Below, piece by piece: positions 8,374 to 61,866 of a stretch of 64,000 nucleotides of DNA. Position 1 is the stretch's first letter, and every line of letters begins with the position of its first letter. A program made the translations under genes and the position numbers. The DNA lies in assembly GCF_002280785.1 (NCBI RefSeq), contig NZ_NCEQ01000007.1, positions 495,147-559,146 on the forward strand, in the 5' to 3' direction. The stretch is from Brevundimonas subvibrioides (lineage in GTDB: Bacteria > Pseudomonadota > Alphaproteobacteria > Caulobacterales > Caulobacteraceae). The notes under the pieces were generated by a model. It had not been told where the DNA came from. It did not search any database and worked only from the letters and a program-made list of their open reading frames with translations.

Positions 8374-8946
8374 ATGACCGCCTTCGTCAAATCCGCTGCA
8401 GTCGCCGCCGCGCTCGCCGCCGCCGCGACCCTTGTCCCCGGCGCCGCCTCGGCCCAGTCCTATGGCTACGGCAACGGCTACAGCCAGAACCAGGGCTACA
8501 GCCAGTCCTACGGCTACAACGACCGGAATCAGGACCGTTGCCGGACCCTGGGTCAGGGCCGCACCGGCTCGGGCGCCCTGATCGGCGCGGGCATCGGAGC
8601 CATAGCCGGATCACAGGTCGCTGCTCGCGGCAACCGCACCGAGGGCTCGCTCATCGGCGGCGTTCTCGGCGCCATCGTCGGCGCCCAGGTCGGTCGCGCC
8701 TCCAACGACCAGTGCCGTTCGAACACCACCTACTCGCAGGCCCCGACCTACTACAGCTCGAACGACCGCTACGACGATCGGGCCTATTCGTCGAACCGGT
8801 ACGACGACCGCGGCTATCGCGACGACGATCGCCGCGACGACCGCCGGGACAACCGTCGGGACGATCGCCGCTACGAGGGCGGCTACGAGGTTTCGGCCGA
8901 CGGCCACTACTATTTCGATCCGCGCCGCGGCTGGCTGCCGCGCTGA
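8374..8946 (+). CDS. Secreted glycine-zipper envelope protein with Asp/Arg-rich tail
   Basis: 190 residues. A clear signal peptide (1 to about 27, ending ASAQS) precedes a Tyr/Gly/Asn/Gln-rich segment. A glycine-zipper hairpin with GxxxGxxxG spacing follows (about 70-108), as in the glycine zipper 2TM family (Rick_17kDa/OmpA-anchor type). The tail (about 128-172) is a run of YDDR/RDDRRD repeats, strongly zwitterionic, ending in YYFDPRRGWLPR. It is probably an outer-membrane or periplasmic envelope protein of unknown role. The frame is open to 8281, but the ATG at 8374 is the start that begins with the signal peptide. A strong terminator follows at 9006. Confidence 0.8.
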   Translation: MTAFVKSAAVAAALAAAATLVPGAASAQSYGYGNGYSQNQGYSQSYGYNDRNQDRCRTLGQGRTGSGALIGAGIGAIAGSQVAARGNRTEGSLIGGVLGAIVGAQVGRASNDQCRSNTTYSQAPTYYSSNDRYDDRAYSSNRYDDRGYRDDDRRDDRRDNRRDDRRYEGGYEVSADGHYYFDPRRGWLPR

Positions 8947-57972: not shown

Positions 57973-58825
57973 TTCCGTCCTCTCCGAGCTGTACCGCCTG
58001 TCGCGCAACCGCATGGCCGTCTTCTGGTCGGCCCTGTTTGTGCCGCTGCTCTTCGTCGTCGGCGGCATGGCCTTCCACCTGATCAGCAAGTCGAAGACGG
58101 CGGAGATGAGTGGTGATCTGGCGCCCGGCGTGGCCGCCTCGATCGCCGTCACCAACCTGGGTCACGACCTCGTGCAGGGTGCAGGCATCGTCGCGAACGG
58201 CGCCGTTCTCGTCTTCATGCTCATCGGCGCGGCGACCCTCTATGCGGGCGACTACCGCTGGGAGACGTGGCGGCTGATCAGCGCGCGCAACAGCCGGCTC
58301 AACCTGATCCTCGGCAAGGTCGGCGCCTTCAAGGTCCTGACCCTGGCGGCCATGGTGGTCTTCCTGATCGCGGGCCTGGTCTTCTCGACGAGCGGCGCCC
58401 TGATCAACGGTCACAGCATTACCTTCAGCTTCGACGGCGGCGACGCGGCCGACCTCGGTCTGCTGCTCCTGCTCGGCTACATCCGCATCATCCAGTACGC
58501 GATGGTCGCCCTGCTGACGGCGGTGCTTACCCGCTCGTTGCTGGCCACCCTGTTCGTCCCGGTGGTGCTGGGCTTTGGCCAGACCCTGCTGGGAGGGCCC
58601 GGCCTCGCGATCCTGCAGTGGGAGCCGACGGCCTGGCAATCACAGCTGCTCCTGCCGGGCCTCGCCTTCGACGCCCTGAAGGCCATGGTGACCGTCGGCG
58701 TCGGCGCCCCGCCCGCGCCCGACGGCCTGATGCTGAAGGCGATTGTCAGCCTGGCTCTGTGGACGATCGTTCCCCTCGCGGGGGCCGTCGCCTGGTTCAA
58801 TCGCCAGGACCTGTCGAAGGAATAG
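57962..58825 (+). CDS. ABC transporter permease
   Basis: 287 residues with about six membrane helices: FWSALFVPLLFVVGGMAFHL near the start, GAVLVFMLIGAATLYAGDYRWET, LTLAAMVVFLIAGLVF, LLLLGYIRIIQYAMVALLTAVL and a C-terminal pair. The YAGDYRWETWRLISARNSR segment is the ABC-2 type signature of exporters that lose drug or bacteriocin-like compounds. It functions with the preceding ATPase. The start ATG at 57962 lies within the end of that gene. Confidence 0.88.
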   Translation: MLADSVLSELYRLSRNRMAVFWSALFVPLLFVVGGMAFHLISKSKTAEMSGDLAPGVAASIAVTNLGHDLVQGAGIVANGAVLVFMLIGAATLYAGDYRWETWRLISARNSRLNLILGKVGAFKVLTLAAMVVFLIAGLVFSTSGALINGHSITFSFDGGDAADLGLLLLLGYIRIIQYAMVALLTAVLTRSLLATLFVPVVLGFGQTLLGGPGLAILQWEPTAWQSQLLLPGLAFDALKAMVTVGVGAPPAPDGLMLKAIVSLALWTIVPLAGAVAWFNRQDLSKE

Positions 58826-58857
58826 GCGGAGGCATCCCGCGAGCATGGCCGACGGCC

Positions 58858-58941
58858 GTAGTTAAACCGGCGTAGTTATACCGCAGTATTTATACGGGAG
58901 TATTTATACGGGAGTAGTTATACTGGAGTAGTTATACCGGA
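58858..58941 (+). repeat. Six perfect-register 14-bp tandem repeats, consensus GTAGTTATACCGGA
   Basis: Exactly 84 bp, six units in unbroken 14-bp register: 58858, 58872, 58886, 58900, 58914 and 58928. Units 3 and 4 are identical (GTATTTATACGGGA). Units 2, 5 and 6 are GTAGTTATAC followed by CGCA, TGGA and CGGA. Unit 1 is GTAGTTAAACCGGC. The array is AT-rich inside a GC-rich region and lies between the ABC permease and the gene at 59062. One perfect inverted copy occurs at 60195-60207. The shape fits a multi-site operator or enhancer. Confidence 0.97.
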
Positions 58942-59018
58942 TAGCCGCCACGAGGGGCGAGGCCTACGTCTCATGGCAGGAGAGTGTCAGTAAGCCTCTG
59001 GCGGCGGTCTCTCCCGCT

Positions 59019-59036
59019 CAGACCCGCACGGGTCTG
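59019..59036 (+). promoter_or_regulatory. Leader hairpin before a small secreted protein gene
   Basis: CAGACCCG and CGGGTCTG form a perfect 8-bp stem with a 2-base centre (CA), ending 26 bases before the ATG at 59062. As RNA it would sit just upstream of the ribosome site GGGAG. It may stabilise or control the mRNA. Confidence 0.35.
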
Positions 59037-59061
59037 GCAGCAGTCGCCCGGGAGTCCTGTC

Positions 59062-59478
59062 ATGCGTGTTTCCGGCCTGTTGCTCGGCTTCTCGGCCGGC
59101 GTCTACCTCATGTGGAAGGTCGCCGTACCGTCCCCGGATGCGTCTCTCTCCTGCTCCGTCGCTCCCGATTGCGCGGTTGCGACCGCCGCCTCCCCGGATA
59201 CGGCCCGGGCGGCGCAGGCGGGTCTGCAAGTCGTCGTCTATGATCCCGAGACCGAACCGCGCGACAGGACCCATGACGGATCGCACATCCCCGGATGGAC
59301 ATCGTCCGAGGAGACCTCTGTCGCCGACCGCCCCGTGATCTCTCCGGCGTCCGACGTGATCCCGCTCCAGAGATTGCGGATCGTCGGCCTCGATCAGGCC
59401 AACGCCCACGGCGCATGCGCGGTTCTCGGCGAAAGGAAACTCGGCTGTTTGGGACTGACTAACCTGGGCGAGCAATAG
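59062..59478 (+). CDS. Small membrane-anchored or secreted protein downstream of the repeat array
   Basis: 138 residues. The N-terminal hydrophobic stretch VSGLLLGFSAGVYLMWKVAV (about 3-22) is a signal anchor. The remainder is polar and periplasmic, with four cysteines in two pairs: SCSVAPDC near 30-38 and ACAVLGERKLGC near 120-132. Two disulfides are plausible. LQVVVYDPETEPRDRTHDGSHIPGW is the only notable phrase. No family recognised. A GTG start at 58984 is in frame but adds a basic leader; the ATG at 59062 has a better ribosome site. It precedes the FixJ-type regulator by 82 bases. Confidence 0.62.
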   Translation: MRVSGLLLGFSAGVYLMWKVAVPSPDASLSCSVAPDCAVATAASPDTARAAQAGLQVVVYDPETEPRDRTHDGSHIPGWTSSEETSVADRPVISPASDVIPLQRLRIVGLDQANAHGACAVLGERKLGCLGLTNLGEQ

Positions 59479-59511
59479 GGAACCGATTTCGATTCCGTGC
59501 GTATGACCGCT

Positions 59512-59531
59512 TAAGTCGGCTATTCGACTTA
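59512..59531. promoter_or_regulatory. Inverted repeat upstream of the FixJ-type regulator gene
   Basis: TAAGTCG and CGACTTA are perfect arms around a 6-base spacer (GCTATT), 30 bases before the regulator ATG. It may be a site for autoregulation. Two GANTC sites (59491 and 59539) lie nearby. Confidence 0.35.
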
Positions 59532-59560
59532 TCCACGCGAGTCTGCGGTCAAGGGCGTCG

Positions 59561-60178
59561 ATGCATCACATCCCTTTCGATCGAATTGTCCATATCGTCG
59601 ATGCTGACCCGGCTGCAAGACAGCATGGCGCGGCGGTCCTGCGCGCTTCGAACTACGAGGTGCGGACCCACGCTTCCGGCAGCGATTTTCTTCTCTGCCA
59701 CCCCGATCCACACCCGGGTTGCATCCTGCTCGACATCCACATGCCCGAACCCGATGGCCTCGACGTTCAGGACAAGCTGATCCAGGCCGGTCAGACGATG
59801 CCGGTCATCGTCTTCACGGGCGAGAACGCATTGGATATCGCGGTCCGCGCGATGAGGGCCGGCGCCCTGTGGTTTCTCGAAAAACCCTATCTCGACGCCG
59901 ATTTGGTGCGCATGGTCGGTGAGGCGATTGCGCGCCAGGACGCGACCGAAGACAGCGCGGATCGTAAAGCAATCGCGACGGCCCAGATCGACTCCCTGTC
60001 GCCTCGTGAAATCCAGGTGATGCAGGGACTGGCGGAGGGCTGGCCCAACAAGATCATCGCCCATGAGCTGGGGCTCAGCATCCGGACCGTCGAGATGTAT
60101 CGGACCAACCTGATGAAGAAACTTGAGGCGCACAGCCTCTCGACCGTCCTCAGACTCTGGTTCGACGCGGGCCGTTAG
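59561..60178 (+). CDS. FixJ-type response regulator (LuxR-family HTH)
   Basis: 205 residues. The receiver domain (8-125) has phospho-acceptor D58 in GCILLDIHMPEPDGL, the switch threonine in VIVFTGEN and the lysine in WFLEKPY. The GerE/LuxR helix-turn-helix (about 143-205) reads LSPREIQVMQGLAEGWPNKIIAHELGLSIRTVEMYRTNLMKKL, close to FixJ/NarL. The acidic pocket reads IVDADPA: D14 is present but the second Mg2+-coordinating aspartate is A15, an unusual substitution. No sensor kinase gene is in the window, so it is an orphan regulator here. The 14-bp array lies about 620 bases upstream. Confidence 0.92.
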   Translation: MHHIPFDRIVHIVDADPAARQHGAAVLRASNYEVRTHASGSDFLLCHPDPHPGCILLDIHMPEPDGLDVQDKLIQAGQTMPVIVFTGENALDIAVRAMRAGALWFLEKPYLDADLVRMVGEAIARQDATEDSADRKAIATAQIDSLSPREIQVMQGLAEGWPNKIIAHELGLSIRTVEMYRTNLMKKLEAHSLSTVLRLWFDAGR

Positions 60179-60194
60179 GCGACCGCCCCGGCCC

Positions 60195-60207
60195 CCGGTA
60201 TAACTAC
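60195..60207 (-). promoter_or_regulatory. Inverted copy of the 14-bp repeat in the leader of a membrane protein gene
   Basis: The sequence CCGGTATAACTAC is the exact reverse complement of the first 13 bases of the array consensus GTAGTTATACCGGA. It ends 52 bases before the ATG at 60260. A single isolated copy next to a promoter strongly suggests a binding site rather than a slippage artefact. Confidence 0.75.
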
Positions 60208-60259
60208 GATATCCACACCGACCGACCGATGGCCTACACCGCTGAAAAGAGGCAGGATC

Positions 60260-60946
60260 ATGGTTGACGCACTACTGGGACTGAAATCGGTTTTCAAGGG
60301 TCAGTCGGTGCCGATCCTCGGCGCGCTCGGCGCGACCCTGCTCGGCGCCGGGGTGGCGCTGGAGTTCGACCGCCTGGTCGCCGTAGCCGACCATCTGATG
60401 CTTCCCGTCGGCCAACAGGTCCTGATCGGGGCGGTCACCACGGCAGGGCTGACAGGCTTTCTCGTGTGGGTCACCAGCGCGCTCATCGCACGCAGCATCA
60501 TCAAGGTGGCGCTTGAGCCCTATGACACCCTCACCGAACAGCTCGAAGGTCTGGCAGACGGAAGGACAGGTCCCGGCCTCGCTCTGCAGGGCGCGGCGCA
60601 GGGGGTTCGCCGGCTGGCCCGCGTCATCGTGACGTTCCAGACCAGGCTTGTCGAAAGCCAGCGCTCCGAGGCCGCGCTTCGGGTGCGATATGACGCCCTT
60701 TGCCATGCGAACGATCATGAGCGTCAAAGCCTGATGGCGGTCCTGCTGGACCGGTCGACGCCTGTCGCAATGAAGGCTGCGCCGCTCATCGATATCGAAC
60801 TGCCCGCAGGATACGAGATCCCGGAGTATTCCGCAGAAGCGCTCGAGGTTCAGTCGCCGGATCCGATGGGGGAGGTCATCGACCTGACGGACCAACTCGG
60901 ACCCATGACGCGGCCCGCTGCACCGCGCGACGCGACGAGCCATTGA
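60260..60946 (+). CDS. Membrane protein with HAMP-like linker, no output domain
   Basis: 228 residues. Two membrane helices (about 15-38 and 52-78) are followed by a HAMP-like segment, VALEPYDTLTEQLEGLADG...GVRRLARVIVTFQ (about 80-120), and a helical cytoplasmic stretch. The C-terminus (about 165-228) is polar and disordered. No kinase, cyclase or methyl-accepting output domain is present. It may modulate another signal protein. Its leader holds the inverted repeat copy, which links it to the FixJ-type regulator. It converges on the LysR gene with an 8-base gap. Confidence 0.7.
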   Translation: MVDALLGLKSVFKGQSVPILGALGATLLGAGVALEFDRLVAVADHLMLPVGQQVLIGAVTTAGLTGFLVWVTSALIARSIIKVALEPYDTLTEQLEGLADGRTGPGLALQGAAQGVRRLARVIVTFQTRLVESQRSEAALRVRYDALCHANDHERQSLMAVLLDRSTPVAMKAAPLIDIELPAGYEIPEYSAEALEVQSPDPMGEVIDLTDQLGPMTRPAAPRDATSH

Positions 60947-60954
60947 GGCAGACG

Positions 60955-61866
60955 TCAGGCGGCGTTCCAGCAAACGGGCGGCGGCGGACTGAGCGACCCT
61001 TCCGCGACCAGCCAGTCGCGGAAGGCGTCGACCGAGGCGTCGGGCCGACCCTCCGGCCTCAGGAAAACGAACTTCGACGGCCGCTCGGCAAAGCCGAACG
61101 GGGCGACCAGCCGTCCCGCCGCGATGTCCGGCGCGACGAAGGCCCAGGGCGCGATGGCCACACCCATGCCGGCCGCGGCCGCCTCAATCATCGAGTTGTT
61201 GTGCTGGAACTCCCGCGACTGGTGAGTGGTCGGCAGCCGCACCCCGACCAGGTCGCTCCAGACCATCCAGCTTTCGCGGAAGGTCGAGGCGTGCAGGCGC
61301 GGCAGCTGCCCCATGGCCTCGATCGTCATCCCGGGCGGTGTCACGGCTGGCGCGCCGATCGGGCCCTGATACTGGGGCAGGAAGGGTGTGATCTCCTGTC
61401 GCTTCGCCTCCTGCCCGGGATTGAAGATGCGAATGGCGCCGTCGATCCGGTCCTTGGCGAAGTCGACGGCAGCGTAGGACTCCGACACCTTCACACGGAT
61501 CTCGGGATGCAGAGCCATGAACCCGGGCAGGCGCGGGATCAGCCATTTCAGGGCGAAGGTGCCGAGGCAGGAGATTTCGATCTCGCGCCGGTCGTCCCGC
61601 CGGGCCGCGTCGACGGCGTCGGTGATGGTCGCGAAGGCGCCGGTCAGGCGGGCGGCCAGTTCAGCGCCGGCGGGCGTCAAAGTCAGGCGATGGCGCGGCC
61701 CGACGACGAGCACGACACCGAGATGGTCCTGCAGCGCCGCGACCTGGCGGCTGACGGCGCCGTGGGTGACGCAGAGCTCGGCCGCCGCGGCCGTCATCCC
61801 GCCGTGGCGCGCGAAGGCCTCGAAGGCGCGAAGGGCGTTGAGCGGTGGCGGGGCAACGGACGTCAT
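60955..61866 (-). CDS. LysR-family transcriptional regulator, GcvA-like
   Basis: 303 residues. The winged helix-turn-helix begins PPPLNALRAFEAFARHGGMTAAAAELCVTHGAVSRQVAALQDHLGV. The effector domain has the SCLGTFALKWLIPRLPGFMALHPEI motif characteristic of GcvA/AmpR-like members. The target genes are unknown: the divergent gene is the 38-residue membrane protein at 61940, and LysR proteins often control their divergent neighbour. Confidence 0.9.
   Translation of the reverse strand: MTSVAPPPLNALRAFEAFARHGGMTAAAAELCVTHGAVSRQVAALQDHLGVVLVVGPRHRLTLTPAGAELAARLTGAFATITDAVDAARRDDRREIEISCLGTFALKWLIPRLPGFMALHPEIRVKVSESYAAVDFAKDRIDGAIRIFNPGQEAKRQEITPFLPQYQGPIGAPAVTPPGMTIEAMGQLPRLHASTFRESWMVWSDLVGVRLPTTHQSREFQHNNSMIEAAAAGMGVAIAPWAFVAPDIAAGRLVAPFGFAERPSKFVFLRPEGRPDASVDAFRDWLVAEGSLSPPPPVCWNAA

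Follow-up and report, generated by a model that had tools for sequence, protein, structure and literature searches.

What do six near-identical 14-bp repeats do in front of a small gene cluster that encodes a FixJ-type response regulator, and is it that regulator which binds them? In the 64-kb stretch of DNA analysed here (the window), the units stand in exact register at 58858–58941 on the plus strand and form a putative operator array at P1, upstream of gene 1. The array, already described in the original prediction, scores 112 and ranks first among five tandem arrays detected in the window, the second scoring 63. The prediction had also placed an inverted copy, perfect over 13 bases, 52 bases before the gene at 60260, and this was confirmed: the putative single operator at P3 (GTAGTTATACCGG) occupies 60195–60207 of the minus strand, and 52 bases separate it from the ATG at 60260. 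When up to two mismatches are allowed, the word has seven matches versus 0.11 expected, a number reached in 0 of 100 shuffles. Elsewhere in the window, at 8808–8876, a 12-bp repeat (CCGCGACGATCG, 5.8 copies) seems by eye to code for the Asp/Arg-rich tail of a small protein.

The core of the motif is a 10-bp dyad, GTA-N4-TAC, which at the single P3 site reads GTATAACTAC (60198–60207 on the plus strand). The array reads GTA-N4-TAC-N4, so that GTA and TAC half-sites alternate every 7 bp. Because unit 1 (GTAGTTAAAC) is degenerate and lacks an intact GTA-N4-TAC, the array contains five intact dyads, in units 2–6; these and the single site are the only six places at which the dyad occurs in the window, where 0.55 are expected under an order-2 Markov model with the array removed. 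Reading the region 58500–61000 as RNA gave no Rfam match, and the array did not fold better than its shuffles (z −1.17). No CRISPR or plasmid-iteron neighbours were recognised in the ORF list of the window.

Three genes on the plus strand make up the locus. Gene 1 (59062–59478) encodes a 138-aa protein whose N-terminus appears hydrophobic by eye, the ground for calling it secreted, and whose four cysteines are kept in 8 of 8 aligned relatives. Gene 2 (59561–60178) encodes a 205-aa FixJ-type response regulator with REC and LuxR/GerE domains; the Pfam matches (Response_reg, 2.3e-21; GerE, 3.7e-19) give it the receiver plus DNA-binding layout of the NarL/FixJ type. Residues D58, T86 and K108, which we take to be the phosphorylation residues, as in the family, are invariant across 21 aligned relatives. 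The best PDB match of the regulator is FixJ (5xso), and its 193.4 bits against NF006900 lie below the FixJ equivalog cut-off of 255, which places it outside FixJ proper. By eye, the ORFs that surround the locus in the window and in the related genomes G105 and G115 showed no FixL-like or other histidine kinase, though the G115 contig ends about 0.4 kb past gene 3 and a partner encoded farther away is possible. Gene 3 (60260–60946) encodes a 228-aa protein with membrane helices by eye and a HAMP-like stretch. No kinase domain was found in it and a PDB profile search returned nothing; the Pfam HAMP matches are weak (3 of 14 members, best E 0.0079), and HAMP accounts for two of the three weak Foldseek matches (E 7.3) to a low-confidence structure model (pLDDT 62.5). 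The 82-bp gap between gene 1 and the regulator contains no GTA-N4-TAC. A different inverted repeat, TAAGTCG-N6-CGACTTA, lies in this gap at 59512–59531 and as an RNA hairpin reaches −9.6 kcal/mol with its flanks (z −1.95); by eye it was not seen at the equivalent place in G105, and it is possibly a second operator or an attenuator.

The same locus was found in few related species. By the names under which relatives (P0008, P0010, P0040, P0048, P0103) stand in their sources, the genus is probably Brevundimonas. Among 131 genomes of the genus, that of the window included, a clear orthologue of the regulator is present in two others, G105 (67% identity) and G115 (60%), the next match being at 44%. 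A search of 390 family genomes for gene 3 gave six: those of the window, G105, G115 and G107 and two with weak partial matches that sit inside longer open frames. As read from the ORFs, G105 and G115 keep the three-gene order within different neighbourhoods. Each has exactly two GTA-N4-TAC dyads, at positions that match those of the array and of the single copy: G105 has, within 10,001 bp, GTATTTCTAC ahead of gene 1 and GTAGAACTAC ahead of gene 3, and G115 has, within 8,000 bp, GTACTAATAC and GTAGAACTAC at the corresponding places. About 0.09 and 0.07 dyads, respectively, would be expected in these stretches, and of the GTA/TAC spacers from 0 to 14 in the two loci only spacer 4 is raised, all others occurring 0 or 1 times. 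The dyad is thus conserved at both orthologous promoters in 2 of 2 other genomes with an intact locus. The distance from the last gene 1 dyad to its ATG is 124 bp in the window, 132 bp in G105 and 102 bp in G115, and that from the gene 3 dyad to its ATG is 52 bp in the window and 59 bp in G105. In the spacer at P3 the word GTA[TG]AACTAC aligns among the three. We count against our preferred reading, given below, that the intact locus is present in only two other genomes, and that the P1 site of G115, left unaligned with the others by MAFFT, resembles them in little more than the ends of the dyad.

The original prediction had made its case depend on conservation upstream of orthologous genes, and dyads are indeed present there in G105 and G115. 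Its model of a local regulon is thereby supported in part, the dyad standing at both promoters in two other species and nowhere else in 10.0 and 8.0 kb. In G107 the regulator is readable only as its DNA-binding end, the P3 word is broken (GTAGAATTAA), and gene 1 was not seen in the stretch read. The gene 3 start is unusual in both G115 (L009) and G107 (L042), where no in-frame ATG occurs at the start position of the relatives and where, by eye, AAGGA is followed after 8 bases by an in-frame ATC; this is possibly a non-standard start codon, or decay.

A search for the pattern of five alternating half-sites returned 2 of the 390 family genomes, that of the window and G076, in which the matching sequence is unlike the array; the reversed control returned one genome. 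The array is specific to the window's genome in the 390-genome set, and the single site is common to relatives. Each of the two promoters in G105 and G115 carries a single site, and beside these the array has the look of an expansion.

The downstream site has a peculiar relation to the end of the regulator gene. In G105 the regulator stop codon overlaps the dyad, and in G115 the second site falls within the regulator coding sequence, where GTA GAA CTA CCA TCT AC encodes V-E-L-P-S-T near the C-terminus. In the G115 loci examined, GTA is used for 5 of 420 valines, CTA for 3 of 518 leucines and GAA for 77 of 310 glutamates; multiplied, the three fractions give a chance of about 2 in 100,000 that codon choice by itself would spell V-E-L in this way. 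Among 50 regulator clusters (P0014–P0063, 58–100% identity, the window included), V-E-L is found in the tail of 25, with P as the next residue in 22, R in 2 and L in 1, and the tripeptide occurs elsewhere in these 50 proteins 3 times in 9,335 residues; the 25 clusters without it were scored neither for nor against. Read at the protein level, these tails are no more than suggestive of a coded operator, and a protein-level role of the V-E-L tail is possible.

How specific the motif is to the locus depends on the form searched. The strict form GTAKTTATAC occurs at eight places in the whole genome, six of which belong to the locus (five array units plus the lone P3 copy); one of the remaining two is within a probable coding ORF and the other is apparently intergenic, beside another kinase/FixJ-type pair. 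In the same genome, GTATAAATACGTAA (L002:2373-2385, contig C35), which contains the dyad together with TACGTA, is located between a divergent ORF and a HATPase kinase/FixJ-type regulator pair. The degenerate form GTAKWWMTAC has 12, 4, 6 and 3 places in the genomes of the window, G105, G115 and G107, of which 6, 2, 1 and 0 are at the locus, and its reversed control is commoner (26, 23, 13 and 26). In the genome search that the original prediction had proposed, the degenerate form is thus rarer than its control, which we count against the preferred reading, and most of its stray matches examined lie in long open frames.

Several broader readings were rejected. A wider regulon finds no support, GTAKWWMTAC being not over-represented and the stray matches examined lying mostly in long open frames or in genome-shared stretches; the exceptions, C35:31872 in the window's genome and C198 in G115, have different neighbours. 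The dyad is not a general FixJ site either: 27 other FixJ-type loci of the genus have four dyads, all GTAGTCGTAC, and TACGTA occurs in none of the 27, which we count against the preferred reading as well. A genome-contig scan with the regulator as single query gave four loci at 28–34% identity in unrelated phyla, which were not accepted as orthologues. None of 8 candidate stretches of viral contigs encodes a relative of the regulator, and all 242 plasmid records that match it do so at below 60% identity.

Sister regulators in other genera of the family offer a further comparison. With P0082, a relative from another genus, as query, matches at E ≤ 1e-52 were found in 59 of 390 family genomes, and all 30 sister loci listed were scanned. 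Seven dyads occur, in seven loci; the 23 loci with none, and the five dyads that are unlike the words of the window locus, are counted against the preferred reading. The two similar ones are GTAGTTATACGG, between the regulator and the next gene in G174, and TACGTAGAACTACGATG in G283, which lies some 0.9 kb ahead of the regulator and in front of a different gene. We also scanned for half-sites as inverted three-base words (64 words × 13 spacers), comparing the 60 commonest with mononucleotide shuffles. The top result, TACGTA, is present in non-coding stretches of 13 of the 30 listed sister loci versus 1.3 expected. In genus g13 it lies at −6 to +21 of the regulator stop codon in 14 of 15 loci, with CACGTA in the fifteenth; as the g13 genomes are related, these 15 loci are not independent. 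A second TACGTA follows 475–490 bp further in 5 of the 15, standing before another gene in L097. These five second sites (L094–L097 and L104) read TACGTATTACTCCCAACTGC in three cases and close variants in two, and that of L097 lies, by eye, after a single-domain receiver gene and before a dehydrogenase-like ORF. Pfam, applied to L087 and L097, identified a PAS histidine kinase ahead of the regulator in both. TACGTA corresponds to spacer 0, unlike spacer 4 of GTA-N4-TAC, and we count this difference against the preferred reading. Taken together, two branches, that of the window and that of the sister regulators, appear to place a GTA/TAC site where the regulator gene ends, though they space its halves differently.

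Judged from sequence comparison, the dyad site is real and conserved, and the array looks like an unusual amplification of the site of a FixJ/NarL-type local regulon. Our preferred reading, to which we assign a probability of roughly 0.65, is that the locus is a local autoregulated regulon of the FixJ-type regulator (59561–60178), which likely binds GTA-N4-TAC, the array being its amplified operator. The regulator would bind the dyad array before the gene at 59062 and the lone copy before the gene at 60260 and so control its own cluster, itself included; autoregulation follows if, as we infer, gene 1 is co-transcribed with the regulator from a promoter on the side of the array. Phosphorylated dimers would use the GTA/TAC half-sites recurring every 7 bp, and the multiplied site may raise occupancy at the gene 1–regulator promoter above that of gene 3. 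The weakest steps concern the sign of regulation: the array would activate, a guess from the distance of its last dyad to the ATG (124 bp), and the lone copy, lying on a −10-like sequence, would affect, and perhaps repress, the core promoter of gene 3. The array would have arisen by tandem duplication of one ancestral operator in the window's lineage, and gene 3 is a candidate signalling partner. The helix has 10.5 bp per turn, so that successive 14-bp units turn by 120 degrees and three units span four turns, in agreement with the original statement that the period is not a whole helical turn.

For the single site the chief alternative is a −10 box: the word before gene 3 would then serve mostly as a promoter element, and the array would have multiplied a similar AT-rich word by chance, with no regulator of its own. 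The −10-like sequence GGTATAAC (60197–60204, plus strand), which overlaps the single operator, matches 6 of the 7 specified bases of GCTANAWC, given as the alphaproteobacterial −10 consensus in the available part of the source (PMC8144410). On the coding strand, P3 matches 6 of the 7 bases in the window and in G115 and 5 in G105; among 3000 random 28-mers 77 reach 6 and 834 reach 5. Against this, a −10 match is not found at each conserved copy of the word: the P1 sites score low (4 in G105, 5 in G115), the units of the array score 3 to 5, which is background level, and the feature common to the sites is GTA-N4-TAC, whose CTAC extends past the −10-like part. We consider this explanation very unlikely. 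The dyads could instead be real operators of another regulator, such as another FixJ/NarL-type protein, with the neighbouring regulator as a target. The genome does hold at least two other regulators that match at E ≤ 1e-30, and one GTATAAATAC, which also contains TACGTA, adjoins another kinase/FixJ-type pair in it. However, the dyads stand at both promoters of the locus in the two relatives that possess the regulator, in G107 the regulator and the P3 word are both broken, and GTA/TAC sites also lie at the ends of the genes of sister regulators. We consider a foreign regulator improbable.

A further alternative concerns the extra copies only and is compatible with the local regulon: one unit would be the operator, and the others neutral products of slippage. 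Apart from the one unlike loose-pattern match, the array is in none of the other genomes of the 390-genome set, and its units 3 and 4 are identical. The dyads are nevertheless intact in 5 of 6 units and vary at 3 of 60 positions versus 5 of 24 in the 4-bp spacers (Fisher p = 0.039, a weak difference), and we regard neutrality of the copies as possible but somewhat unlikely. The original prediction had set a binding site against slippage. The binding site gains support from its conservation in relatives; the opposition does not hold, because the array probably came about by duplication or slippage from an ancestral operator, so that the two are not alternatives. At the other extreme, the array may be an operator minisatellite, a regulatory dial on which dimers sit as a three-fold screw and repeat number sets the strength and sharpness of autoregulation, while the second operator in the regulator coding end of relatives ties the site to the protein when the cluster moves; we consider this extension of the local regulon rather unlikely.

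Known systems resemble the proposed regulon in part. FixJ, with its fixK and nifA sites in rhizobia and Rhodopseudomonas, has the same domain layout as the gene 2 product. In the available portions of the sources, the FixJ words are the in-vitro-selected GTAGTTTCCC (PMC4999443), GTAMGTAG and GTACGTAG (PMC4999443, PMC13327599), the last of which is named for the FixJ-bound fixK promoter and contains TACGTA (PMC13327599). These words have GTAGTT or GTA/TAC in common with the dyad and the sister TACGTA, and the earlier appeal to GTA-containing half-sites of FixJ-type regulators is in line with the GTAGTT that the motif has in common with GTAGTTTCCC (PMC4999443). Unlike FixJ, the window regulator falls under the equivalog cut-off, has no FixL-like kinase recognised beside it, and is associated with a GTA-N4-TAC layout and multiplied sites. 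The 7-2-7 sites of NarL, as far as the source text available describes them, are similar in having inverted heptamers with TAC and GTA ends and a GerE-type dimer (PMC4549865); they read TAC-N10-GTA over 16 bp, whereas the window has GTA-N4-TAC over 10 bp, head to tail every 14 bp. BvgA, also of LuxR/NarL type, comes close in the number of sites, as many as six for its dimers lining up at a single promoter according to the accessible part of PMC7250471, but its dimers are 22 bp apart on one face and its weak sites are variable, whereas the units of the window are near-identical. Given the 22-bp spacing of BvgA, dimers on every 14-bp unit might clash, a tightness that we count against the preferred reading, and alternate or overlapping registers are possible. 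Nearest in kind are the PAS-kinase/FixJ-type pairs of other family genera, which have related regulators and a GTA/TAC site at the regulator gene end; they differ in the PAS histidine kinase before the regulator (L087, L097), in TACGTA (g13) and in having single copies. In searches of the open-licence literature on tandem operator arrays of response regulators or on TACGTA, no title or opening lines of an abstract among the papers listed described such an array, and the parts of that literature searched gave no described site for the FixJ-type branch of the window regulator.

If the local regulon is true, the locus would give this FixJ-type branch a candidate site, GTA-N4-TAC here and TACGTA in the sister regulators, and would be an example of a regulator gene that carries its operator where its coding sequence ends, or just within it. 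It would also be a compact native system for relating operator copy number to two-component output, in which the one-copy relatives would serve as natural controls.
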